DNA of 64,000 nucleotides from Peptostreptococcaceae bacterium VA2 (lineage in GTDB: Bacteria; Bacillota; Clostridia; Peptostreptococcales; Peptostreptococcaceae), in NCBI GenBank assembly GCA_000686145.1, contig JMMB01000007.1, forward strand, positions 1,426,001-1,490,000. Reading direction: 5' to 3'. Shown piece by piece: positions 15,849 through 52,223 of this stretch; the first letter of the stretch is position 1, and each line of letters opens with the position of its first letter. Under the pieces are notes generated by a model, which made no database searches, was not told the origin of the DNA, and saw only the letters and a list, made by a program, of their open reading frames with translations. The position numbers and the translations under genes are program-made.

Positions 15849-16089
15849 GATGACTTCCTCCTCGTATGAATATACCACAATATTGAAATTATGAAAATAG
15901 TAATAATTAAGACTATAGTTATCATCTTAAATAACATATATTTATAATTTATATATACGTTTATATAACTAGGTTTTTAGATATATAGTTTTAAATATAA
16001 CAAATATGGGTATTAAGTTAAAATACGATATTGTAGATAAATGTAAAATAGATATAGAAATTATAATACGAATTTGTAGGGGGATAAAA

Positions 16090-17448
16090 ATGTTTAAGAA
16101 AAAAACTAAAAAAATTGAGAAAACGTTTGATAAAATAGCGATACCTGTGAAAACTATGGTAAAGGGTGTTATTGATGCAGCTATTAGTATTAGTGAGTTT
16201 TATGTTAAAATGAAACATCAATCAAATGCACTATTGTCTAAATCTGAGAATCTAAAAAAACATACAGACAATATTACTAATGTAATACATAGTGTAAATG
16301 AAAATATGAATGAAATATCAAATAATATCATAGAACACGTTTCTTCTATAGAAGAAATATCTATTCAAGCTAATTCATTATTAACTTTAAACAAAGAAAA
16401 TAATAAATCGCTAGATAAAGTTAACGCTTTAAAAGGTGATATGTTAAATCAGTCTTTATCAATGGAAGATGATATAAATAATTTGTTAGAGCTTATAGCA
16501 AATATGAAAAGTACTATTGATGGTATTAATGAAATAGCTAAACAAACCAATATTTTAGCATTAAATGCAAGTATAGAGGCTGCAAGAGCTGGGGAGCATG
16601 GCAAGTCATTTGCTGTTGTAGCTGGGGAAGTGAGAAAGCTTGCTGATGTTACTCAACAACAGCTTACTTTTATAGATAATCTGATGAATGATATTGGGGA
16701 GGCTTCTGCTAAGAGTAAGGATAGTATATCTCAAACTAAAACTGCTGTATCTAATATGAATGATTCTATTAGTGATATTTCTACATCTATTAAAGAAAGT
16801 GAAGAAAGCATAGAAGTAGTTTCAAGTAGCGTTATCCATATAGCAGCTACATCACAGGAGGTAAGTGCCCTTATTGAATATATTAGTGAGGAAACTAATA
16901 TATTGACTAATGACGCGAATACTATCAAAGCTATATCACAAGAGGTTCATAATCAAGCAATAGAAGTTGGTAATATGGGAGAGTCTATATCTAATATTGA
17001 AGATAATATTTCAAATTTAGCAAAATTAAGTAATCAAATTTTCTATGATGATAATTTTAAAATGGATAATAATACTTTTGTAAGTGTAATGGATAATGCA
17101 ATTTCAGCTCATACAAAGTGGGTTAATACTCTTGAAACTATGGCAGATAAAATGCAGGTACAACCACTACAAACAGATGGACATAAATGTGGATTTGGAC
17201 ATTTTTATGAATCAGTACAACCAAAAGATAAAGGTATTAAAGATATGTGGTATAAGATAGATCCTATACATTTAGAATTACATAAAGTAGGGCATGTAGT
17301 AATTGATAAAATTGAATCTGGAAATAAAATTGAAGCTGTAAGTAATGCAAATATGGCAAAGAATATATCACTACATATTATTAAGATGTTAAATGATATA
17401 AAAAAACAAGCAAATATACTTACTAATAATGGAGAACATGTATTTTAA
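16090..17448 (+). CDS. Soluble methyl-accepting chemotaxis protein with CZB zinc-binding domain
   Basis: This 452-residue receptor has no membrane helix or periplasmic domain. A long coiled coil contains the conserved signalling hairpin tip ([23 protein letters not shown], then [13 protein letters not shown]) for CheA/CheW binding. The C-terminal ~120 residues form a CZB domain with the expected ligands: His in HTKW, Cys in HKCGFGHFY, and two later His in [13 protein letters not shown] domains sense zinc or oxidants such as hypochlorite. ATG 16090 follows GTAGGGGGAT; an ATG at 16006 lacks a site. Confidence 0.88.
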
Positions 17449-17559: not shown

Positions 17560-17770
17560 TTAATAATTAGAATTTAAAAATATCTTCTTATACTCAAGAG
17601 GTGTCATATTATTATATTTCTTAAACAACTTAATAAAGTAACTTTGATTCTTAAAACCAACTCTAAAGCACACATCTATTATAGATATATCCTCATGCTG
17701 TAAAAATTCACTAACAGCATTAATCCTATAACGATTAATATACTCAATTGGATTTTTACCTATGGCACCT
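17560..17770 (-). pseudogene. AraC-family regulator, C-terminal remnant
   Basis: Only the last ~65 residues of an AraC/XylS regulator remain: the second helix-turn-helix with NPIEYINRYRI, the DISIIDVCFRVGF recognition segment and SYFIKLFKKYNNMTPLEYKK. A functional protein of this family needs at least about 100 residues for both helix-turn-helix units and usually has a sensor domain. The 5' part is missing and the frame joins sequence of an oppositely oriented gene at about 17760. Confidence 0.8.
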
Positions 17771-17947
17771 CCATTAGAAGAAATCACTACAAAGTTAAAA
17801 TTACCTAATCCATCATGCGAGTATGAACCTTTTTATACAAATTTTGCAAGAGTAGTTAGAGCGGGGGTAGAGCCTATAGTAAAAAATGAAGAAGTATATA
17901 AGTTGATGAAAGTAATTGAAGATATATTTAAGTCTGCAAAAATTTAA
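17762..17947 (+). pseudogene. Gfo/Idh/MocA oxidoreductase, C-terminal remnant
   Basis: About 45 residues (NPSCEYEPFYTNFARVVRAG, EPIVKNEEVYKLMKVIEDIF, then SAK) match the C-terminus of NAD(P)-dependent sugar or polyol dehydrogenases of the Gfo/Idh/MocA family. The Rossmann domain and active site are gone. Together with the AraC remnant on the left this is the product of one internal deletion in a divergent regulator/enzyme pair. Confidence 0.75.
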
Positions 17948-17984
17948 AAATTGATATTAAATCTTAAAATTAAATAAATTAAAG

Positions 17985-18017
17985 AAAACACATTGATAAA
18001 ACTATCAATGTGTTTTT
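17985..18017 (+). terminator. Terminator after oxidoreductase remnant
   Basis: A 14-bp perfect stem (17985-17998 with 18003-18016) has an AAAC loop and ends in five T residues. Confidence 0.75.
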
Positions 18018-18182: not shown

Positions 18183-19256
18183 ATGAAATATATAATAAAT
18201 AAAGATCAAATGACTCCGAAAGAAAGAATGCAGGCTTTCGGACAGGGGAAAGAAATAGACAGAATACCATGTTCACCTTTTTTGGGGGAAAGCGTTGCAA
18301 AAACATTTGGGCATACCATATATGACTACAATCATTCTGTAGATGTGCTTGTAGATGTAGCGGTTAAAAGTTTTGAGACTTTTCGTCCTGATAGTATTGG
18401 ATTTGGGCCAGGACTTCAAGGTATACCAGAGGCTATGGGGAGTGGAGTTGTCTTTACAGCAAACAATACGCCATATATTAGTAAACCTGCTATAAGTGAT
18501 TATAGTGAAATAGGAAAATTAAAACCAGTAGATGTATATAAAGATGGAAGAATACATTATTTTTTAGAAGCACTTAAAATAACTAATGATAAATTAAGCA
18601 ATGAGGTAGGAGTAGGAACTTCTGTAGGAGGGCCTTTTACCGTAGCATCTTTTTTAAGAGGAACAGATAAATTTTTAAGGGATTTAACTAAAAATAAAGA
18701 AATGGCACATGAGCTTTTAGAAATTTCTACTCAAAGTGTTTTAAATTATATTGATGCAGCTTGTGATATAGGATTATCTCCTGGACTTGCAGAGCCAAAT
18801 GCGTCTTGTACTATGATTAGTTCAAAAAACTTTGAAGAATTTGCAAAACCATATTTAAAAAGATGTATGGATAGGATTGTAGAAAGAACAGGAGGAGGTT
18901 CAACTCTTCATATATGTGGAAAAACGAAAAAAATATGGGGTCATATGGTTGATATAGGAATATCTAATTTAAGTTTAGATAATGTAGACGATATAGGTGA
19001 GTTAAAAGAAGCTTATGGAGATAAAGTATGTTTAATTGGAAATGTAGACCCTGTTGAAACAGTTATGAGAGGTAGCATAGAAGATATATATACAAAAGCT
19101 AAAGAATGTATAATTAAGGGTCATGATAGTGAAAAAGGATTTATATTAAGTACGGGTTGTGATATTCCTATAGGAACAGACCCTCAAAAAATAATAGCAC
19201 TTATGGATGCTGCAAGAATATTTGGATCTAATAAAATAAATATTAATGAATTATAA
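18183..19256 (+). CDS. UroD-like corrinoid methyltransferase 1
   Basis: This 357-residue protein belongs to the uroporphyrinogen decarboxylase-fold methyltransferases (MtaA/MtbA/OdmB-like), which move methyl groups to or from corrinoid cofactors. The zinc site typical of the methyltransferase branch is present: His243 and Cys245 in HICGKTK, and a later Cys in STGCDIP. True HemE proteins lack this set. It is the first gene of the operon, 12 bp before the corrinoid protein gene. Whether it acts on the substrate or on the final methyl acceptor cannot be told from sequence. Confidence 0.85.
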   Translation: MKYIINKDQMTPKERMQAFGQGKEIDRIPCSPFLGESVAKTFGHTIYDYNHSVDVLVDVAVKSFETFRPDSIGFGPGLQGIPEAMGSGVVFTANNTPYISKPAISDYSEIGKLKPVDVYKDGRIHYFLEALKITNDKLSNEVGVGTSVGGPFTVASFLRGTDKFLRDLTKNKEMAHELLEISTQSVLNYIDAACDIGLSPGLAEPNASCTMISSKNFEEFAKPYLKRCMDRIVERTGGGSTLHICGKTKKIWGHMVDIGISNLSLDNVDDIGELKEAYGDKVCLIGNVDPVETVMRGSIEDIYTKAKECIIKGHDSEKGFILSTGCDIPIGTDPQKIIALMDAARIFGSNKININEL

Positions 19257-19268
19257 GGGGAGATTATA

Positions 19269-19946
19269 ATGTCAAATTTAAAACAAGAATTATTAAAAAA
19301 ATTATCAGATTGTGTTGTAGAAATGGAAGATGAAGTTGTAGTAGATATAGCTAAAGAATATATAGAAAATGGATTTGAAGCATATGAAGGAATATCTAAA
19401 GGATTAGCTTATGGTATGGAAGAGTCAGGAAAATTATATGAAGAAGAAGAATATTATATCCCAGAGCTTTTATTATGTTCAGATGCTATGTATGAGGGAA
19501 TAAATATATTAAAACCACACATAAAAAAAGATTCAACTAAAGAAAGTTATAAAGCAGTAGTAGGAGTTGTTGAAGGAGATACACACGATATTGGTAAAAA
19601 CTTATTTAAAATAATGTTAGAAACTTCTGGATTTGAAGTTTACGACTTAGGTAGAGATGTTCCTTGTATAGATTTTATAAACAAAGCAAAGGAAGTAAAC
19701 GCTGACTTAATAGGATTATCTACTCTTATGACAACTACTATGGACAATATGCAATCAGTTATAGAATTACTAAATAAAGAAGATATTCGTGAGAAATTTG
19801 TTGTAATGGTAGGTGGTGGACCTATATCACAAAGTTTTGCAAATGAAATAGGAGCAGATGGATATGCACACGAAGCATCAAAAGCTGCGAAACTTGCAAA
19901 AGAACTAATAATTAAGAAAAAAGCTATGTATGAAGAGGTGGTATAA
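19269..19946 (+). CDS. Corrinoid (B12-binding) methyltransferase carrier protein
   Basis: This 225-residue protein has the two-part structure of MtaC/MtbC/OdmA-type corrinoid proteins: a helical cap domain at residues 1-90 and a Rossmann-like B12 domain. The signature is complete: D104-x-H106-x-x-G109 in GDTHDIGKN, followed by GLSTLM and GGGP. His106 is the expected lower cobalt ligand. It would carry the methyl group between the UroD-like proteins encoded on either side. Its stop overlaps the next start (TAATG), so the genes are translationally coupled. Confidence 0.92.
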   Translation: MSNLKQELLKKLSDCVVEMEDEVVVDIAKEYIENGFEAYEGISKGLAYGMEESGKLYEEEEYYIPELLLCSDAMYEGINILKPHIKKDSTKESYKAVVGVVEGDTHDIGKNLFKIMLETSGFEVYDLGRDVPCIDFINKAKEVNADLIGLSTLMTTTMDNMQSVIELLNKEDIREKFVVMVGGGPISQSFANEIGADGYAHEASKAAKLAKELIIKKKAMYEEVV

Positions 19947-20965
19947 TGACTCCAAAAGAAAGGTTATATAAAGTTTTAAGAGGAGAAGTTGTAGATAGAA
20001 AACCTTGTATTTGTCCTGGTGGGATGATGAATATGATAGTTGAGGACATTATGGATATAGAGGGTGTTTTTTGGCCAATGGCTCATAGTGATTCTAATAT
20101 GATGGCAGATTTAACTATAGGTATGTATAAAAACAATGGTTTTGAAAACTTTGGAGTTCCGTTTTGTATGACTGTAGAAGCTGAAAGTATGGGAGCAGGA
20201 GTATATATGGGAACAAAAATTACTGAACCTAGAGTGATAAAATACCCAATAGAATCTGTTGTAAGTTGGAGAGAATTAAAAAAAATAGATGTTAATGAAG
20301 GAAGAGCAAAAGTCGTTATAGATGCTATAAAAATACTAAAAGAAAAAAACGATGATGTTCCTATAATAGCAAATTTAACAGGTCCAGTAAGTTTAGCATC
20401 ATCACTTATGGAACCTATGACTTATTATAAAGAATTAAGAAAAAAGAAAGAACAAGCTCATGAGTTTATGGAGTTTGTAACAGAAAATCTTATAATATTT
20501 GGTAAAGCTCAATTAGAAGCTGGAGCAGATGTCTTAACAATATCAGACCCAAGTGGTACAGGAGAAATACTTGGTGCTAAAACTTTTAGTGAGTTTGCAA
20601 CTCCATATTTAAATAAGATAATAGATGAATTAAAAGCATATGCAAAAGGTGGAACTATCATACATATATGTGGGAAGCTAAAAAGTATATACAATGAATT
20701 AAACGACTTACACAGTGATGCAGTTAGTTTTGACTCTATAACTAATGCTAAACAAGTTATCGAAAATGTTTCAGGCAAAGTTATTATGGGAAATGTTAGT
20801 ACATTCGCAATTGAAAATTCAAGCAAAGAAAGTTTAAAAAATATTTCTAATGAATGTCTGAAAAGTGGTGTAGATATATTATCTCCAGCTTGTGGAATCG
20901 GGGTAAGAAGTAAACTTGATAACATTAAAATTTTAGTAGAATGTGCAAAACAATATAAAAGCTAA
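19946..20965 (+). CDS. UroD-like corrinoid methyltransferase 2
   Basis: This 339-residue UroD-fold methyltransferase differs from the first copy in sequence but keeps the zinc site (HICGKLK near residue 233 and a later Cys in SPACGIG). The N-terminal region contains PFCMTVEAESMGA, also seen in the third copy at 23709. Two distinct UroD-like proteins around one corrinoid protein suggest one donor-side and one acceptor-side methyltransferase; which is which is unknown. Confidence 0.85.
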   Translation: MTPKERLYKVLRGEVVDRKPCICPGGMMNMIVEDIMDIEGVFWPMAHSDSNMMADLTIGMYKNNGFENFGVPFCMTVEAESMGAGVYMGTKITEPRVIKYPIESVVSWRELKKIDVNEGRAKVVIDAIKILKEKNDDVPIIANLTGPVSLASSLMEPMTYYKELRKKKEQAHEFMEFVTENLIIFGKAQLEAGADVLTISDPSGTGEILGAKTFSEFATPYLNKIIDELKAYAKGGTIIHICGKLKSIYNELNDLHSDAVSFDSITNAKQVIENVSGKVIMGNVSTFAIENSSKESLKNISNECLKSGVDILSPACGIGVRSKLDNIKILVECAKQYKS

Positions 20966-20978
20966 AAAGAGGTATTTT

Positions 20979-22772
20979 ATGAATTACTTATATATAAATA
21001 ATGAAAAATATGAATTTGAAAAAGGAAATAGTCTTTTAAATATAATACAATTAAATAAATTGGGTATGGAAAGTCCTTGTGGCGGAAAAGGGACTTGTGG
21101 AAAATGCAAGATAAAAATAATAGATGGAAGTGTAAACGATTTAACTCATGAGGAATTAAAATTTTTAAATAAAGAAGAATTAAAAAACAATGTGAGGCTA
21201 GGTTGTTTAGTTTATCCTAAAGGAGATATAACTGTAGAGTTTATTAAAAGTGAAGATAAAAATCATAAAATTTTAACAGAAGGTTATATGCCAGAATTTA
21301 ATAAATCTCCAATGCTTTCAAAAAAAGCTTTCAAACTAAATAAGCCTACATTAGAAAATAATATATCGTTAGAAGAGATTTTAGAAAAACAAAATATAAA
21401 GATAAATAATGATTATAATATTTTAAAATCTATTCCAAGTCTTTTTGAAAAAGATAATTGCACAGTAGTTTATTTAGATGAAAAAGTCATAGGTATAGAG
21501 TGTGAAGACACTACTAAAAATTTATATTCAATAGCTTTGGATATAGGAACAACTACAGTAGTTGCTTCTCTTATAGATATAAATAAACAGTGTGAGATTG
21601 ATTGTGAGAGTGATATAAATCCTCAAAAGGAATATGGATTAGACGTTTTATCTAGAATAAACTTTGCCAAAACTAATGAAAATGGCTTAGAAATATTAAA
21701 TAAAAGTATTATAGATTGTATAAATAGTTTAATTATTAAGTTATGTGAAAAAAATAATATAAATAAAGAAAATATATATGAATTAGCAGTTGCTGCAAAT
21801 ACTACAATGATGCATATGCTACTTAAAATAAATCCTAATTCAATAGGGAAAGCGCCATACTCACCAGTATTTATAAGTGGAAAAAGTATAAAAGCTATGG
21901 ACCTAGGAATAAATATATCTTCATTTGGAAGAGCTTACTTATTACCAGGAGTATCAAGTTATATAGGAGCAGATATTGTTTCGGGGATTTGTGTTTGTGA
22001 CTTACATAAAACTAAAAAAAATATTTTATTTATAGATATAGGTACAAATGGAGAAATAGTTGTATCAAAAAATTCAGAACTATCATCTTGTTCTTGTGCT
22101 GCTGGACCTGCCCTAGAGGGTATGAACATAAGTTGTGGTATGAGAGCAGGAGAAGGTGCAATTGAAAATATAAAAATTGGCGAATTTATAGAAACTAAAG
22201 TTATAGGAAATACAAAACCTAAAGGATTATGTGGAAGTGGAATTATAGATGCAATAAGTGAAATGGCAAGATTAAAACTTATAGGAAGTACTGGTAGAAT
22301 AAATAAAAAATCTATGATAGAAGAAGATAACAATTTAAAGCATCTAAGTGAAAATATAATAGATGAAAATAAGAAAAGAAGATTTGTACTAGATACTCAA
22401 AATCCACAAATAGCAATAACACAAAGTGATATAAGACAAGTTCAATTAGCAAAAGGAGCTATATTATCAGGCTTTTATGCACTGCTTAATAGTATGAATA
22501 TAGATATTAAAGATTTAGATGAAGTTATCATTGCTGGTCAATTTGGAAAGCATCTTAGCGTACAAAGTTTAGTAGGAGTAGGTATTATTCCAAAAGAACT
22601 AAAAGAAAAGATTAGATACATTGGGAATTCATCAAAAACTGGAGCTATAATGACTCTACTTTCTAAGGATATTAGAAAAGAGATGGAGTGTATTGCAAAG
22701 GATATAAGTTATTGTGAATTATCAACTGAAGAAGGGTATGAAAGATTTTTTACAGATTGTTTAAAGTTTTAG
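20979..22772 (+). CDS. Reductive activator of corrinoid protein (ASKHA, 2Fe-2S; DUF4445)
   Basis: This 597-residue ATP-dependent activator would reduce inactive Co(II) corrinoid to Co(I). A plant-type [2Fe-2S] ferredoxin domain at residues 1-90 has CGGKGTCGKC and a later Cys. It is followed by a linker and an ASKHA ATPase (ALDIGTTTVVASLID, then FIDIGTNGEIV and CGSGIIDAISEM). This layout is that of RACE/RamA-like proteins of O-demethylase and acetogen systems. ATG 20979 has AAAGAGG upstream; an in-frame GTG at 20943 overlaps the previous gene and lacks a site. Its presence argues for a functioning system. Confidence 0.9.
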   Translation: MNYLYINNEKYEFEKGNSLLNIIQLNKLGMESPCGGKGTCGKCKIKIIDGSVNDLTHEELKFLNKEELKNNVRLGCLVYPKGDITVEFIKSEDKNHKILTEGYMPEFNKSPMLSKKAFKLNKPTLENNISLEEILEKQNIKINNDYNILKSIPSLFEKDNCTVVYLDEKVIGIECEDTTKNLYSIALDIGTTTVVASLIDINKQCEIDCESDINPQKEYGLDVLSRINFAKTNENGLEILNKSIIDCINSLIIKLCEKNNINKENIYELAVAANTTMMHMLLKINPNSIGKAPYSPVFISGKSIKAMDLGINISSFGRAYLLPGVSSYIGADIVSGICVCDLHKTKKNILFIDIGTNGEIVVSKNSELSSCSCAAGPALEGMNISCGMRAGEGAIENIKIGEFIETKVIGNTKPKGLCGSGIIDAISEMARLKLIGSTGRINKKSMIEEDNNLKHLSENIIDENKKRRFVLDTQNPQIAITQSDIRQVQLAKGAILSGFYALLNSMNIDIKDLDEVIIAGQFGKHLSVQSLVGVGIIPKELKEKIRYIGNSSKTGAIMTLLSKDIRKEMECIAKDISYCELSTEEGYERFFTDCLKF

Positions 22773-22783
22773 AGGTGGAAACA

Positions 22784-23698
22784 ATGATAAAATTAGATAT
22801 AATTTCAGGATTTTTAGGTTCTGGAAAAACAACTTTAATAAAGAAAATTCTAGATTTTTATAAAAATGAAAAAGTTGTAGTAATAGAAAATGAGTTTGGT
22901 GAGATAGGAATAGATGGAAGTATCATTAAAAAGGATGGACTAGATATAATAGAACTCCAAAATGGATGTATCTGTTGTAGCATGAAATTAAAATTTAAAG
23001 ATACTATTTTAAAAGTAGCTAAAGAATTTAATCCAGACCGTATAATTATTGAACCAACAGGAATAGCAATGCTAAGTGAGATATTATCAATGATTAACAA
23101 TGACGAAATTAAATTAAACTTTAGCATAAATTCTTTGGTAACTGTGATAGATGTTATTAACTACTTTGATTATATAGAGAGCTTTGGAGAATTTTTTGAA
23201 GACCAAATTATAAGCGCAAAAACACTTTTACTTAGCAAAAACAATTTATTAGAAGATGAAGAGATAGATAGTGTAGTAAAGTCACTTAAAAGCTTAAATG
23301 AAAATGTAGATATAATAAATAAAGATTGGAATGATTTATTAATAGAAGATTTGTTAGTAGATAATATGAAAAATAATATAAACGAAAAATATAAAAAAAT
23401 TAAAAAATTTGATTTGATTTCTACAAATATGAAATCTATAAGTAGTGTTTCTATATCGAATTTAAAAATCAATGAAACAGAAAAAATAGAAGAAATATTT
23501 GATGATTTCAGTAATGGGAAGTACGGAAAAATATTAAGAGCAAAAGGCTTTTTAAAATCTGTATTAAATAATACATTAGAATTTAATTATGTAAATGGAC
23601 AATACAATATTAAAGAAAGCGATATAAAAACAACTTCTAAAATATGTATTATAGGTAGTGAGTTACAAAAAGAAAAATTAAAAAATATATTTAAGTAG
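22784..23698 (+). CDS. COG0523/CobW-family GTPase (metal chaperone-like)
   Basis: This 304-residue P-loop GTPase has Walker A GFLGSGKTTL at residues 8-17, the ENEFGEIGIDG switch segment, and the family's metal-binding CxCC in NGCICCS. EPTGIA follows. The usual NKxD base-recognition motif appears as SKNN, so nucleotide preference may be relaxed. A shortened C-terminal domain follows. COG0523 proteins deliver zinc or cobalt-type metals to client enzymes; here the zinc-dependent UroD-like proteins or the corrinoid are the obvious clients. ATG 22784 follows AGAGGTGG. Confidence 0.85.
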   Translation: MIKLDIISGFLGSGKTTLIKKILDFYKNEKVVVIENEFGEIGIDGSIIKKDGLDIIELQNGCICCSMKLKFKDTILKVAKEFNPDRIIIEPTGIAMLSEILSMINNDEIKLNFSINSLVTVIDVINYFDYIESFGEFFEDQIISAKTLLLSKNNLLEDEEIDSVVKSLKSLNENVDIINKDWNDLLIEDLLVDNMKNNINEKYKKIKKFDLISTNMKSISSVSISNLKINETEKIEEIFDDFSNGKYGKILRAKGFLKSVLNNTLEFNYVNGQYNIKESDIKTTSKICIIGSELQKEKLKNIFK

Positions 23699-23708
23699 GT
23701 TAATAATT

Positions 23709-24581
23709 ATGGATGAAGTATTTAAATGTAGCCAAAATGACAATGAAAATATACCAGTAGCACTTATAATTAATACGGATTTGAAATTTCCGAATTTACA
23801 CACAAACTCAAATGATATTTCATATATATCGCAAAAATTAAAAGCACATAAAAATGATGCTTTCTGTAAGCTTCCATTTTGCACTACGGTTGAAGCACAA
23901 GCAATGGGGGCAAATATAAATCTTGGAGATGAAAAAAATTGTCCTAGGGTAGGAAACTATGCATTTGATGATATAAAAGACTTATTGAAAATATCCAAAA
24001 TAGATTTGAATAAAGGTAGAATAAAAGAAGTCTTAGATGCTATTTCTATGTTGAAAAATAAAGACGAAAAAGTAGTTTTAAATGTTTGTGGACCTTTTAC
24101 TATAATATCTTTATTAATAGACCAAAAGTACTTTTATAAAGCATTAAGAAAAGATAAAAGTACAATAGATAATATTCTTAAAATTATTGAAGATAATATA
24201 GTGGATTATGCTGTAAATGCAAATGAAAATGGAGTTAACATAATTTCCTTTAGCGACCCTGTGGCATCAATAGAAATAGTTGGTCCTAGAGTTTACAAAG
24301 AGATAGTGGGAAACACTATTAGCAGGCTATTAAATAAGCTAGACGATGCTTTAGATGATACTATTATCCATCTTTGTGGGAAAACTTCTACATCTTTAGA
24401 ATTTTACGGATTTTGTGAATCTGAAAAAGTATATTACAGTAAAGATATAATGTATGGGCAAGCCATATGTGAATTAATATCTACAAAAGATAAAGGAAAT
24501 ATTTTTATAGGTCATAATTGCATGAAAAGAACTCCTTACAAAACAACTGAATCTTTATTGTATAATATAAAAATCCATTAA
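23709..24581 (+). CDS. UroD-like methyltransferase 3, N-terminally short
   Basis: This 290-residue protein resembles the product of 19946-20965 but lacks about 40 N-terminal residues. The region equivalent to PFCMTVEAESMGA appears as PFCTTVEAQAMGA near residue 57. The zinc site is kept (HLCGKT near residue 224 and Cys in GHNCMK). The ribosome binding site is weak. It may be an accessory acceptor-specific methyltransferase, or a degenerating duplicate. It ends the operon and is followed by a terminator. Confidence 0.75.
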   Translation: MDEVFKCSQNDNENIPVALIINTDLKFPNLHTNSNDISYISQKLKAHKNDAFCKLPFCTTVEAQAMGANINLGDEKNCPRVGNYAFDDIKDLLKISKIDLNKGRIKEVLDAISMLKNKDEKVVLNVCGPFTIISLLIDQKYFYKALRKDKSTIDNILKIIEDNIVDYAVNANENGVNIISFSDPVASIEIVGPRVYKEIVGNTISRLLNKLDDALDDTIIHLCGKTSTSLEFYGFCESEKVYYSKDIMYGQAICELISTKDKGNIFIGHNCMKRTPYKTTESLLYNIKIH

Positions 24582-24614: not shown

Positions 24615-24660
24615 AAAACAGTGTCTAAAAATAATTTCATTATTAAATAGGCACTGTTTT
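24615..24660 (+). terminator. Terminator of corrinoid operon
   Basis: A 13-bp stem (24615-24627 with 24648-24660, one G-T pair) with an AT-rich loop ends in TTTT. Confidence 0.7.
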
Positions 24661-24756: not shown

Positions 24757-25197
24757 ATGAAAAAATATGAATAAATTGGTGATTTGATATACTTTATTTC
24801 TAAGGAATTAAAAACAAGATTAGATGAAGAACTAAAAGATACAAATTTAGGTCAAGGTCAAACGCTAACACTTATGACATTATTTAGATTAAAAGAAAAA
24901 GAGGAAATAGATCAAGAAGTGCTTTCAAAAGAAATGGGAATAAACAAAGCAAATACGAGTAGAAATTTAGCTAAATTAAAACAAAATGGATTTATTGAAA
25001 CAAACCAAAATCCAATAGACCAAAGGAGGAAACAAGTAGTCTTAACTCCAAAAGCTTATGAAGAGATATTTAACTTAGAAAAAATATTAAAACAAATTCA
25101 TAAAGATATGATTAAAGATTTAGATGAAGAATCACTTACTCATACATTAAATACATTAAATAAAATGAAAAATAATTTATGTGATAAAAAACTTTAG
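24757..25197 (+). pseudogene. MarR-family regulator with early stop codon
   Basis: AAGGAG at 24743-24748 and ATG 24757 start a MarR-like frame (MKKYE), but codon 6 is TAA. The same frame then continues intact for 141 codons with a full winged helix: LSKEMGINKANTSRNLAKLK recognition helix and the wing segment NPIDQRRKQV. A single substitution of CAA, GAA or AAA to TAA explains it. Translation from TTG 24784 is possible in principle but no ribosome binding site precedes it. The next gene in the operon is also broken. Confidence 0.8.
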
Positions 25198-25207
25198 GAG
25201 GGATAAC

Positions 25208-25646
25208 ATGAAAGTAAATATAATATATTTTTGAGGAACTGGAAACTAAAATATGTAGCTGAATATATAGGAAAAAAATTAAAAGACAATGGAGATAAAG
25301 TAAAAATAGATAGTATAGACAAAAACTCTAAAATAGATGAAGATGCAGGCATTTTAATTATAGGAGGTCCAATTTATGCAAGTAATGTACTTGAAAAACT
25401 TATAAGATGGGTACTTATAAATGTAGAAAATAAAAATACTAATTATATTAGTGTACTCAACATCAGCAGGGCTTATGTGTTAAAAAGTGCCCACAAAATA
25501 ATATAAGATTTGAAAAATACAAAACTATAAAATTTAATAATAAATGTATGGCTTGTATGAAATGTATTCATAGTTGTCCTAAAAATGTTATAAATTATAA
25601 AAATGAAAAATATGAACAATATAATATAAATGAATATATAGAATAA
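25208..25646 (+). pseudogene. EFR1-type flavodoxin/ferredoxin, multiply inactivated
   Basis: The gene begins MKVNIIYF behind GGAGGG. A TGA then replaces the serine codon of the flavodoxin FMN loop (IIYFSGTGN expected). Two bases are missing after GTGN, a further shift occurs near 25453, and another near 25480. Joined across frames, the product has an N-terminal flavodoxin fold and a C-terminal 4Fe-4S site (CMACMKCIHSCPK) at about 25550-25580. This is the EFR1 ferredoxin architecture. At least four lesions make it clearly dead. It was co-transcribed with the MarR gene upstream. Confidence 0.85.
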
Positions 25647-25671
25647 TTTAAGCAAAAAGAAAGGAACGACA

Positions 25672-26304
25672 ATGGATAAAGAATATTTTAAAAAAGATGG
25701 TTTAGAGTTAGCTAAAAGTGTTTTAGGTAAGTACTTAATTAGAAACTATGATGGTAAAACAATAGTAGCTAAAATAGTAGAAACTGAAAGCTATATGGGA
25801 ATAAATGATAAGGGAGCTCATGTATACGGGGATAAAAGAAGTGAAAGAACAAAGCCACTATATCTAGAAGGCGGGCATATATACGTATATTTAATTTATG
25901 GAATGTATTACTGTTTAAATATATCTGCAAACAAAGAAAATGTACCAGAATGCGTATTAATAAGAGCAGTAGAGCCTATAAAAGGAATAGAAGAAATATC
26001 ATTTAATAGATTTAAAAAAGAATATAAAGACTTAACAACTTATCAAAGAAAGAATATAAGCAATGGTCCAGGAAAGCTTTGTATGGCACTTAAAATAGAT
26101 AAAAATCTAAACGCTAAAAGTATTTTAGAAAATGAACTATACATAAGTGATTTTTATTATGAAGAAGACAAGAAAGTATACAGTAATGAGCAAATAGAGA
26201 TACAAACTAGCAAAAGAATAAATATAGATTATGCACAAGAAGCTAAAGACTATTTATGGAGATTTTTTATAAAAGATAATAAATATGTGAGTGTAAACAA
26301 ATAA
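25672..26304 (+). CDS. DNA-3-methyladenine glycosylase (AAG/MPG family)
   Basis: This 210-residue base-excision repair enzyme removes alkylated purines from DNA. The alkyladenine glycosylase fold is recognised from LAKSVLGKYLIR, the catalytic Glu in KIVETESYMG, the GGHIYVYLIYGMYYCLNI core and CVLIRAVEP. The length is typical for bacterial members. AAAGGAACGAC precedes ATG 25672. It follows the decayed ferredoxin gene by 25 bp and has its own terminator. Confidence 0.93.
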   Translation: MDKEYFKKDGLELAKSVLGKYLIRNYDGKTIVAKIVETESYMGINDKGAHVYGDKRSERTKPLYLEGGHIYVYLIYGMYYCLNISANKENVPECVLIRAVEPIKGIEEISFNRFKKEYKDLTTYQRKNISNGPGKLCMALKIDKNLNAKSILENELYISDFYYEEDKKVYSNEQIEIQTSKRINIDYAQEAKDYLWRFFIKDNKYVSVNK

Positions 26305-27112: not shown

Positions 27113-27160
27113 GGATGATGTAGTGTCACGTAGAAATATAAAAAAATGAGAGGGGAAATC

Positions 27161-28435
27161 ATGTCGCCTAAGTTATTTAGCATGTTTAAGAATCAAGAGT
27201 TAAGTAGTAGTCAAATCAGAAAAGATATAGTAGCAGGTATAATAGTAGCAATAATAGCTCTACCATTATCAATAGCACTAGCTATATCTTCAGGAGTATC
27301 CCCTGAAAAGGGTCTTATAACTGCAATATTTGCAGGATTTACCATATCCTTACTAGGTGGTAGTAAAGTTCAAATTGGAGGACCGACAGGTGCCTTTGTC
27401 GTAATTGTTTATGGGATAGTAAAAAGTCATGGTATGGATGGACTTATAATAGCAACATTGATGGCGGGTATTTTACTTATTATAATGGGACTTTTAAAAG
27501 TTGGTAATTTAATAAAATATGTTCCCAAAACAATAACAGTAGGTTTCACAAGTGGTATAGCAGTAACACTTCTTATAACTCAGTTTAAGGATTTATTAGG
27601 ATTACAAATTCAAAACGTTCCAGCTGAGGCTATGGAGAAATTAGAAAGCTATATTCACAATATAACAACATTTGATATATTAACTTTTATAGTAGGAATA
27701 GCATGTATATTAATTATGATATACTGGCCTAAAATAAATAAAAATATACCAGGATCTATAATAGCATTAATTTTATCAACATTAGTTGTTAAGGTATTTA
27801 ACATTCAAATAGATACAATAGGAAGCGTATACAATAACTTATCATCAAGTATTCCAGCACCAAGTATACCTGATATGAGTTTAGAAAAAATAGTGCCATT
27901 GATTCAGCCAGCAGTTACGATAGCAGTACTTGCAGGGATAGAGTCTTTATTGTCGTGCGTAGTTTCAGATAAAATGATAGATGATGAGCATGATTCAAAC
28001 ATGGAACTTGTAGCACAAGGGTTAGGAAATATAGCTAGTGCATTGTTTGGAGGAATTCCAGCAACAGGAGCTATAGCAAGGACAGCAGCAAACGTTAAAA
28101 ATGGCGGAAGAAGCCCGATATCGGGTATAGTACATGCCGTAACACTACTTTTAACAATGTTAGTTTTAATGCCACTTGCAAAATTAATTCCGATGACAGT
28201 TTTGTCAGCCATATTAATAATCGTATCTTATAATATGGGGGAGTGGAAAGAAATGAAAGAAATGCTACATTTACCTAAAAAAGACGTAGTAGTTCTTTAT
28301 ACAACTTTTGCACTTACAATAGTATTTGATTTAGTAGTAGCAATCGGAGTAGGAATGGCACTTCATTTAATATTTAGCCTAATGGAAAAGAATAAAGTCA
28401 AAAAAGAGAATTTGGATATGAAAGAAGCTATATAA
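27161..28435 (+). CDS. SulP-family inorganic anion transporter without STAS domain
   Basis: This 424-residue protein has the SulP transmembrane core of about 12-14 helices, including IVAGIIVAIIALPLSIALAI and the GGSKVQIGGPTGAF signature region. The protein ends about 15 residues after the last helix, so the usual cytoplasmic STAS domain is missing. STAS-less forms are known in the family. Substrates range from sulfate to bicarbonate; none can be assigned. ATG 27161 follows GAGGGGAAA. Confidence 0.88.
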   Translation: MSPKLFSMFKNQELSSSQIRKDIVAGIIVAIIALPLSIALAISSGVSPEKGLITAIFAGFTISLLGGSKVQIGGPTGAFVVIVYGIVKSHGMDGLIIATLMAGILLIIMGLLKVGNLIKYVPKTITVGFTSGIAVTLLITQFKDLLGLQIQNVPAEAMEKLESYIHNITTFDILTFIVGIACILIMIYWPKINKNIPGSIIALILSTLVVKVFNIQIDTIGSVYNNLSSSIPAPSIPDMSLEKIVPLIQPAVTIAVLAGIESLLSCVVSDKMIDDEHDSNMELVAQGLGNIASALFGGIPATGAIARTAANVKNGGRSPISGIVHAVTLLLTMLVLMPLAKLIPMTVLSAILIIVSYNMGEWKEMKEMLHLPKKDVVVLYTTFALTIVFDLVVAIGVGMALHLIFSLMEKNKVKKENLDMKEAI

Positions 28436-30101: not shown

Positions 30102-31727
30102 TTAATTGTTTTTCCATTTGTTAACGTAACCATCTAAAATCTTTTTAAGTGCAACACCTATTTGAGAGTAAGCTTCGTCATAAAGGTTTGCTAGTGAAAT
30201 TCTGATAGACCATTTAGGTCCTGCAAATCCACCACCACTTAATAAAACTATAGAAGATTCTTCTGCTAAAGCAAACAAGACTTCCACTGGTTTATAGTTT
30301 TTTTCTAGATAGTTAGCAAAATCTTTTCCATGATGAGTTTGTGCCCATTGTAATAAGTCAAATTGAGTATAATAAGCTGCGTCATTAGGGTTGGCAGTTA
30401 ACTCAAGACCTAAACTATCAAACAATAATTTTTGTCTAGTATGGCAAATATCTATAGTCATATTTTTATAAATATTTTCTTTGTCAATTAATGCTGAAGC
30501 TGAGAAAAATGCCATCTGTACTTGTTGAGGAGTAGAAAGACCGGCAGTATGATTAAGTGCAACTTGTCTACTATCTGCGACTATTCTATCTATAAAAGGA
30601 ACTTTTTCAGGATGAGTGTTCATGTCAGAGTATCTTTTGTTAGTTCTCTTTTTTATAGAATAAGGAAGCTCATCTATAAGTTTATCAAATACATTTTTTT
30701 CATGAAGCGCAAGTGTTCCTAATCTCCATCCTGTTACACCAAAATATTTAGAGTAAGAATAAGAACCAATTGTATTATAAGGAAGCTTAGCCATTAAAGA
30801 CTCAAACCCATGTACAAATGTGCCATAAACATCATCGCATATAATCATTAAATCAGAATTGTGATTTTTAACTATATCTACTAATTTTTCACTAGCTTTA
30901 GGAGATATAGCGACAGATGGAGGATTGCTAGGATTTACAACAAATAAAGCTTTTATATCGTTGTCCATAAGTTTTTCTAATTCTTCTTTAGAACATTGCC
31001 AAGTGTGTTTTCCGTCTTTAGTTTTTTCGTCTGCATTTATGTAAACAACCTCAAATTCGTATCTTGGAAGATGTGGAATTTCTAAATAAGGTGTAAATAT
31101 AGGTGTCATTATAGCGACTTTGTCACCTTTTAATAATAAATTATTTGCAATAAGTGAATCAAAAACATAACACATAGCAGCTGTTGCACCCTCTACGGCA
31201 AAAACGTTGAAATTTCCACCTTCACAAACATTGTACTTCATCTCTTGAATTAAATATTCTTTAACTATTTTTTCTATATGGACTAGCATTCTGTCAGGAA
31301 AAGGATAGTTATCTCCAATTATTGCATCAGTCAATTCATATACAAAACTATCGGGGTCAAATTTAAGAGTATTGATTCCATAGTCGATAATTTTCTTTAA
31401 AAAGCCTATTTCTGGCATAGTAGGATTTTTTTCAATATATTTGTATAGTCTAGAAGCTATGTTAGTCTTTCTAGGCATGCCAGAAAGTGGACCTTGATTC
31501 CAAGATTGTCTACTTTCTTGGATTGCAAAGTGACCAAATGTAAAAAATGCTTCACGAGGAAGATGTGATATCCAGTTTGGGTTACCTCTTCCTGCATCAA
31601 GTAAAGTACGAGTACTTTTTTTGTTAGGCTTGGTAGCTAGTTCTAGCAGTTTATTTTTAAATTCAAAAGGACTAATTTTTCCATATATGTTTTCTAGTTC
31701 TTGTCGTTTAATATTGATAGGTTCCAT
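30102..31727 (-). CDS. Aspartate 4-decarboxylase (bifunctional with aspartate aminotransferase)
   Basis: This 541-residue PLP enzyme of the class I aminotransferase fold is long enough to match AsdA-type aspartate 4-decarboxylases (about 530-540 residues) and not ordinary aminotransferases (about 400). The N-terminal extension with DAGRGNPNW and the insertion around AIQESRQSWNQGP are typical. The PLP lysine is in SYSKYFGVTGWR, with NPSNPPS and the Asp in ICDDVYGTF. It converts aspartate to alanine plus CO2. No aspartate-alanine antiporter (AspT) lies next to it. AAGGAGAATTTAT precedes the start on the minus strand. Confidence 0.9.
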   Translation of the reverse strand: MEPINIKRQELENIYGKISPFEFKNKLLELATKPNKKSTRTLLDAGRGNPNWISHLPREAFFTFGHFAIQESRQSWNQGPLSGMPRKTNIASRLYKYIEKNPTMPEIGFLKKIIDYGINTLKFDPDSFVYELTDAIIGDNYPFPDRMLVHIEKIVKEYLIQEMKYNVCEGGNFNVFAVEGATAAMCYVFDSLIANNLLLKGDKVAIMTPIFTPYLEIPHLPRYEFEVVYINADEKTKDGKHTWQCSKEELEKLMDNDIKALFVVNPSNPPSVAISPKASEKLVDIVKNHNSDLMIICDDVYGTFVHGFESLMAKLPYNTIGSYSYSKYFGVTGWRLGTLALHEKNVFDKLIDELPYSIKKRTNKRYSDMNTHPEKVPFIDRIVADSRQVALNHTAGLSTPQQVQMAFFSASALIDKENIYKNMTIDICHTRQKLLFDSLGLELTANPNDAAYYTQFDLLQWAQTHHGKDFANYLEKNYKPVEVLFALAEESSIVLLSGGGFAGPKWSIRISLANLYDEAYSQIGVALKKILDGYVNKWKNN

Positions 31728-51932: not shown

Positions 51933-51954
51933 AATATTAATCAAATTTTATTTA

Positions 51955-52223
51955 AAGCGATGAAAAGAACAAGTAAAGCTAATGCAGTCTAACAGAGAGT
52001 TTCCGTTTGGTGAGAGGAGCAAGATAAGTTAGTTTGAATACATCTTAGAGCAGTTTTCCTGAAAGATAACAACCATTAGGGAAAGTCGTTTAGCATACGT
52101 TATAGTGCTTAGGTATAACCAATTTGGCGTACCTGTTGAGGTTAATACTGAAAAGTGTTAATGAATTAAGGTGGTAACACGTGAGCAATGCTCTCGTCCT
52201 TTTATTAGGATGAGGGCTTTTTT
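51955..52223 (+). promoter_or_regulatory. Tyrosyl T-box leader with terminator
   Basis: All T-box landmarks are present: the AGAGAG stem I start (51995), the specifier loop GAATACATC with the Tyr codon TAC at 52039-52041, and the T-box sequence AAGGTGGTAACACG (52168-52181). The terminator has arms 52190-52200 and 52207-52217 and six T residues. The TGGT of the T-box bulge fits a tRNA ending ACCA. Uncharged tRNA-Tyr would stabilise the antiterminator and switch on tyrS. Confidence 0.95.

Follow-up and report, generated by a model that had tools for sequence, protein, structure and literature searches.

The type 1 mlp gene clusters described by Kountz and Balskus (PMC10418091) encode corrinoid-dependent enzymes that act on methylated selenium or sulfur compounds. 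Such clusters encode Mlp2 and Mlp3, and in C. ljungdahlii the genes stand in the order Mlp1-Mlp2-Cor-Mlp3-Ram. As defined in that study, the Mlps of an mlp cluster are more than 25% identical to an SCMT, Cor and Ram run in the same direction, no divergent gene lies between, gaps are at most 2 kb, and no tetrahydrofolate (H4folate) methylase occurs within 20 kb. The same work gives H-x-C...C as the ligand set of S-methyltransferases, with several Mlps1 departing from His-Cys-Cys, and reports methylcobalamin:selenide activity for the Mlp2 of C. ljungdahlii. Here we compare these clusters with a six-gene operon of Peptostreptococcaceae bacterium VA2, found at 18183-24581 (+) of a 64,000-nucleotide stretch (assembly GCA_000686145.1, contig JMMB01000007.1, positions 1,426,001 to 1,490,000) that we call the window. 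The operon is a further copy of the published family, so it is mostly not new. What is new concerns two of its genes: the gene of a COG0523 GTPase is optional yet preferentially placed before Mlp1, and Mlp1 is short, with two near-invariant cysteines and a zinc-site histidine that is often lost.

The operon and its products

The six open reading frames (ORFs) run in the same direction, almost without gaps, and are bounded by hairpins at 17985-18016 and 24615-24660. Pfam and profile models (URO-D cut-off, 23.9 bits) identify three UroD-fold proteins, a corrinoid protein, a RACo-type activase and a COG0523 GTPase. An earlier interpretation made from the letters alone (the sequence-only reading) had proposed the same parts list, which the ORFs and Pfam domains bear out. 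The features are the following:

17985..18016, 5' of the operon: 14-bp perfect inverted repeat, terminator-like on the - strand (-14.6 kcal/mol, z -8.0)
18183..19256 (+): UroD1, 357 amino acids, predicted Mlp2-position methyltransferase; Pfam URO-D 259 bits; H243-x-C245...C326
19269..19946 (+): corrinoid protein, 225 amino acids; B12-binding and B12-binding_2; DxHDxG B12 motif
19946..20965 (+): UroD2, 339 amino acids, assigned to Mlp3; URO-D 287 bits; PRK06252 464 bits (cut-off 244); H240-x-C242...C316
20979..22772 (+): RACo/RACE-type corrinoid reductive activase, 597 amino acids; RACo_C_ter 251 bits, Raco_middle 202 bits, Fer2
22784..23698 (+): COG0523 (CobW/G3E) GTPase, 304 amino acids; cobW 144 bits, CobW_C 30.7 bits; P-loop GFLGSGKT; CxCC motif (CICC)
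23709..24581 (+): UroD3, 290 amino acids, shortened UroD-fold protein assigned to Mlp1; URO-D 105 bits; conserved C7, C223, C271 and D183; H221 varies among family members
24615..24660 (+): hairpin with a short run of T behind it, probably the terminator of the operon (-16.5 kcal/mol, z -6.0)

The activase most likely starts at the ATG at 20979, the ORF finder's start at 20943 being too early, because a sequence resembling a ribosome-binding site lies upstream and many relatives have the resulting length of 597 amino acids. For the GTPase, a similar upstream sequence makes ATG 22784 the probable start, and the ORF finder's 22757 too early. A pattern scan of the region for inverted repeats returned two sites against 1.7 expected by chance; the repeat at 17985-18016 is one of them, and the hairpin at 24615-24660 is not among them.

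Probable membership in the type 1 mlp family

All five core genes lie in the same direction with no divergent gene between them, and the largest gap between core genes, of about 0.94 kb, is occupied by the GTPase gene. Identity was computed against a single SCMT, the Methanosarcina mazei MtaA (residues 14-344), and reached 27% for UroD1 (342 columns), 33% for UroD2 (334) and 26% for UroD3 (246). UroD1 and UroD2 have the His-Cys-Cys ligands at the expected sequence positions. UroD3 has the HxC motif too, but its last cysteine sits elsewhere or is shifted. The genome also has the selenium trait of the selenium group of type 1 clusters (selD with an in-frame TGA, selB and tRNA-Sec).

We searched the VA2 genome (3.58 Mb, 11 contigs) for possible partners. 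The three UroD proteins of the operon are its only URO-D family matches, and B12-binding_2 occurs in the operon, in one MetH-like protein and nowhere else. PF00809 (pterin-binding) has three matches (C7:263089, 594215 and 1170533, the operon being at C7:1444183-1450581): a dihydropteroate synthase, the 801-residue MetH-like protein and AcsE, all more than 270 kb from the operon. This leaves no pterin-binding or H4folate methyltransferase within 20 kb in the PF00809 search, in which MtrH was not searched separately. No MttB-type protein was found in the genome search. The sequence-only reading had noted the absence of MttB-, MtgB- and MtrH-type partners from the operon, which agrees with the operon domains and, with the limit given for MtrH, with these searches. 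As a side observation, the Pfam domains of the MetH-like protein (L073:541-2946) end with B12-binding, and no reactivation domain was matched.

Among the relatives we retrieved, one cluster, L169, which we take to be that of C. ljungdahlii, has the order GTPase-S-U1-Cor-M3-RACE, where S, U1 and M3 denote the short type (UroD3/Mlp1), the UroD1 type and the UroD2/Mlp3 type. The genes that follow the GTPase stand in the order published for C. ljungdahlii, and therefore UroD3 corresponds to Mlp1, UroD2 to Mlp3 and UroD1 to the place of Mlp2. The assignment to Mlp3 is clear, whereas UroD1 is only a candidate Mlp2. Identities between the two clusters are 32% for Mlp1, 33% for the Mlp2 place, 59% for Cor, 55% for Mlp3 and 50% for Ram. 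The equation of UroD3 with Mlp1, which we first doubted from C. ragsdalei P11 and which L169 then favoured, is thus supported by sequence comparison. Hence, the class without explanation that the sequence-only reading implied gives way to a published one.

Three lineages of UroD-fold proteins

A tree of 162 UroD proteins and MtaA, made with FastTree only, with several long branches and no O-demethylase sequence, resolves three groups: S, with 62 rows, one change and support 74; M3, with 46 rows and three changes; and U1, with 54 rows and three changes. It bears out the suggestion that one corrinoid protein is served by three separate UroD-fold lineages. Nor do the three proteins join one enzyme of known function, MtaA being the only yardstick, and in this respect the grouping proposed as a check came out in favour of the suggestion. 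UroD1 falls in a sub-lineage of its own, with five rows, and the sub-lineage that occupies the Mlp2 place apparently varies from cluster to cluster.

The H-x-C motif and the C-terminal cysteine are kept in all 113 U1 rows (106 distinct sequences) and all 97 M3 rows (89 distinct). Such thiol-type ligands bear on an alternative reading, in which the operon would be a methylotrophic O- or N-demethylase (for aryl methyl ether, methylamine or betaine) that feeds the Wood-Ljungdahl pathway via AcsE. The AcsE gene adjoins the gene of the acetyl-CoA decarbonylase/synthase gamma subunit, and this pair could use methyl groups. However, the ligands of UroD1 and UroD2, the lack of an H4folate methyltransferase in or near the cluster (PF00809) and the lack of MttB in the genome search all speak against it; the operon has neither of the partners, MttB or an H4folate methyltransferase, that mark methylamine, betaine or O-demethylase systems. 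We rejected this alternative as the leading reading on these three grounds and consider it very improbable. The sequence-only reading had kept aryl ethers and methylamines as equally likely donors, which the ligands of UroD1 and UroD2 and the fit to type 1 clusters do not support.

UroD3, a shortened Mlp1

To place the operon among its relatives, we used 80 named loci, the best 80 of 440 relatives found with the UroD2 profile and thus biased to close relatives; 58 of them have nearly full flanks, and their genes were named by best score after simple ORF calling. The identical six-gene order occurs in eight of the 80. A short Mlp1 of about 290 amino acids was called in 69, one of which (L099) scores only 32 bits and has a very long branch. 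Since this form recurs in 69 of the 80 loci and C271 and D183 are present in all 85 rows of the short type, we discarded the possibility that UroD3 is a decayed pseudogene.

These 85 rows represent 80 distinct sequences, some genomes being sampled twice. In them, D183 and C271 are found in 85/85, C223 in 84/85, and C7 in 80/80 of the rows with a residue there, while the histidine position of HxC holds His in 43/85 and Leu in 37/85. In an alignment of the short type (A4, 51 of the 62 rows of a set thinned at 80% identity, the 11 dropped rows being mostly long-branch or of odd length), C223, C271 and D183 are invariant and C7, C53 and C58 are conserved in at least 90%. A MAFFT alignment of the three window proteins places C271 of UroD3 at a Gly-Asn-Val-Ser stretch of UroD2 and leaves the C316 region empty, UroD3 being without the SPACG region that holds the last zinc cysteine. 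The AlphaFold2 model of UroD3 (mean pLDDT 92.9, pTM 0.92) has a mean pLDDT of 64 and no strand in residues 1-10; its top Foldseek matches in the PDB are MtaA structures (4ay7/4ay8), with a TM-score by query of 0.66 for M. mazei MtaA.

Because Mlp1 lacks the region of the last zinc cysteine and tolerates the loss of the histidine, one may tentatively suppose that it is a rebuilt UroD-fold methyltransferase, with a cysteine-rich site (candidates C223, C271 and the N-terminal C7) for selenols or a non-zinc metal, and that the neighbouring GTPase is dedicated to loading it with metal. A profile comparison of A4 with A3 sets C271 of UroD3 beside C304 of UroD2 and C7 beside C23. The latter is kept in 92/97 UroD2-type rows, so that C7 is not special to Mlp1. 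This register lowers the odds of a rebuilt site, which we regard as unlikely, and a simple deletion that shifted the usual cysteine of Mlp1 is possible from the aligned residues.

A GTPase with a preferred place beside Mlp1

COG0523 proteins are recognised by a G3E P-loop and a CxCC motif, and the VA2 GTPase has both, together with a CobW_C domain. A GTPase gene was found in 29 of the 80 named loci, 28 of which also have Mlp1. Of these 28, 23 have the two genes side by side, with the GTPase always first. When the GTPase was placed at random, a mean of 7.9 loci showed adjacency and none of 2000 shuffles reached 23. If every one of the 15 gene orders is given a single count, 10 are adjacent against 3.8 expected, with four of 2000 shuffles as high. 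The activase lies beside the GTPase in 11/28 loci, where chance would give 8.1 and 334 of 2000 shuffles reached at least 11. None of these shuffles corrects for relatedness. In the loci with Mlp1 from the window's own family, the window included, 17/31 hold the GTPase and 14 of the 17 have it adjacent.

The GTPase is thus an optional partner whose preferred place is directly before Mlp1. In three Clostridioides difficile genomes (L110-L112) the cluster contains Mlp1 and lacks a GTPase. L170 (G078) has a GTPase ORF of just 125 amino acids beside an intact Mlp1, which is a point against the GTPase being essential. The presence of the GTPase showed no link to the loss of the HxC histidine (leucine with versus without GTPase, 16/17; histidine, 13/20). 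In Metaclostridioides (L045, L046, L047 with L064, L065, L066) we observed two clusters: the core cluster has neither Mlp1 nor GTPase, and the other carries both together with further parts, as though these two genes could separate from the core.

COG0523 genes inside corrinoid methyltransferase clusters, including that of C. botulinum, were reported in 2009 (Haas et al., PMC2770081). The main text of PMC10418091 contains no occurrence of GTPase, COG0523 or CobW in a term search. Among the literature matches listed, no title or start of an abstract ties a COG0523 GTPase to mlp clusters, most subscription papers being outside this coverage. The idea that the GTPase provides dedicated metal loading is plausible; that COG0523 genes are linked to corrinoid methyltransferases has been published before (PMC2770081). 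Conservation in the operon, put forward as a check, is partial: the gene is retained in the 29 named and 17 family loci given above and was not found in the rest.

The close association invites another explanation of Mlp1, namely that it is no substrate methyltransferase and acts as a structural, regulatory or metal-buffer partner kept with its GTPase. The adjacency in 23/28 loci would fit this, as would the missing C-terminal region, where its relatives have their last zinc cysteine, and the HxC histidine retained in only 43/85 rows. However, D183, C223 and C271 are almost invariant, suggesting a retained metal or substrate site, and we hold such a partner role to be unlikely.

Proposed function

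We propose that the operon, as a type 1 mlp cluster, most likely removes methyl groups from small selenium compounds (methyl-selenol, dimethyl-selenide), from methyl-sulfur compounds or from both, and so recovers selenium or sulfur. From sequence comparison we put the probability of this proposal at about 0.72. The RACo-type activase would reduce the corrinoid protein to Co(I), as expected from its family. UroD1 and/or UroD3 would then transfer to Co(I) the methyl group of a methyl-selenol or methyl-thiol compound bound to zinc, a step for which the nearest assay is that of C. ljungdahlii Mlp2 (about 33% identical to UroD1), run in reverse with selenide (PMC10418091). UroD2 may hand the methyl group on to a thiol acceptor, for example sulfide, since by pairwise identity it is the closest of the three to the coenzyme M (CoM) methyltransferase MtaA; H4folate is also a possible acceptor because the genome has AcsE. 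Finally, the GTPase would load metal into sites of the cluster, most probably that of UroD3/Mlp1, because its gene usually lies beside that of Mlp1.

The selenium side of the proposal draws on the assay of C. ljungdahlii Mlp2, the Methanococcus data, the ligand set and the selenocysteine genes of the genome. An Sdm-like operon of Methanococcus maripaludis is described as more highly expressed under selenium depletion (PMC11097638). In the VA2 genome, selD with its in-frame TGA (389.9 bits), selB (353 bits) and the best tRNA-Sec match (69.8 bits) lie within about 10 kb of one another. The tRNA-Sec model has four further matches at 48-50 bits, just above the cut-off of 47, which are probably other tRNAs.

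The main rival is methyl-sulfur or methionine salvage, in which the same enzymes would demethylate methyl-thioethers or methanethiol, pass the methyl group to methionine and have no role in selenium metabolism. The H-x-C...C set suits sulfur as well as selenium, the genome encodes the MetH-like protein of 801 amino acids, and such salvage was proposed in PMC10418091 for clusters of the non-selenium clade. That proposal, however, concerns genomes that lack selenium traits and carry MarHDK-like genes within the cluster or the genome, whereas VA2 carries selD, selB and tRNA-Sec. We therefore judge a purely sulfur-based role to be unlikely.

Several observations weigh against the assignment or the function that we propose. 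The tree places MtaA next to the U1 group (support 89) and not with UroD2, so the division of roles that gives UroD2 the acceptor step is weak. UroD1 shares just 33% identity with the L169 protein in the Mlp2 position and belongs to another sub-lineage of the same large group; its substrate may therefore differ. The Mlp1 profile matched only an Mlp3-type protein in C. ragsdalei P11, and the GTPase was not found in 51 of the 80 named loci. As selD is above the cut-off in 66/71 genomes of the family, the selenium trait does not separate genomes with the cluster from those without it here. No selenium gene was seen among the 23 scanned window proteins outside the operon.

Surroundings of the operon

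UroD2 is 99% identical to the UroD2 of a Romboutsia sedimentorum contig. As for plasmid relatives, the plasmid collection gave no near match. The nearest intact gene on the 5' side encodes a chemoreceptor-like protein with a zinc-binding CZB domain (16006-17448). Between it and the operon are an AraC-family helix-turn-helix fragment with a Pfam match (17560-17790, -) and a fragment without one that by eye resembles the end of an oxidoreductase (17762-17949, +); the two suggest decayed genes at the upstream edge. On the 3' side, a MarR-type regulator gene (24757-25197) has an in-frame stop at codon 6 past its ATG, a later TTG start being possible, and it is followed by what by eye is the start of a flavodoxin/ferredoxin-like gene (25208-25700), disrupted by multiple stops and shifts of frame. 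Also nearby, though not specific, are a SulP-family permease (27146-28435) and an aminotransferase of class I/II (30102-31727). Further along, a T-box leader (51951-52204) precedes a tyrosyl/tryptophanyl-type tRNA synthetase gene.

Comparison with known systems

These results place the VA2 operon in a published class of corrinoid selenium/sulfur methyltransferases that is also present in gut bacteria and in some pathogenic clostridia. They narrow an open point of the class, namely the role of the shortened Mlp1 and whether the GTPase that often adjoins it serves Mlp1.

The operon resembles the type 1 mlp cluster of C. ljungdahlii in having all five core parts on one strand and no H4folate methyltransferase near. 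It differs from it in that Mlp1 comes last, behind the GTPase, and in the origin of UroD1, which belongs to a different sub-lineage within the Mlp2-like group. The L169 cluster has a GTPase too, 35% identical to that of VA2. The SdmABC system of Methanococcus, for dimethyl-selenide demethylation, likewise combines a corrinoid protein with methyltransferases, some annotated as UroD (PMC10418091, PMC11097638); it is archaeal, and we liken it to the VA2 operon by description and not by sequence. COG0523 subfamily 13 (PMC2770081) is alike in gene context, with a COG0523 gene within a corrinoid methyltransferase cluster, whereas the preferred spot next to Mlp1 is described in the present analysis. 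Finally, the methylcobamide:CoM methyltransferases MtaA and MtbA (PDB 4ay7) belong to the same URO-D family, and UroD1 and UroD2 share their H-x-C...C ligands. Unlike them, the VA2 operon is not in a methanogen context, UroD2 scores below the MtaA and MtbA equivalog cut-offs, and UroD3, in the three-protein alignment, is without the C-terminal ligand region.

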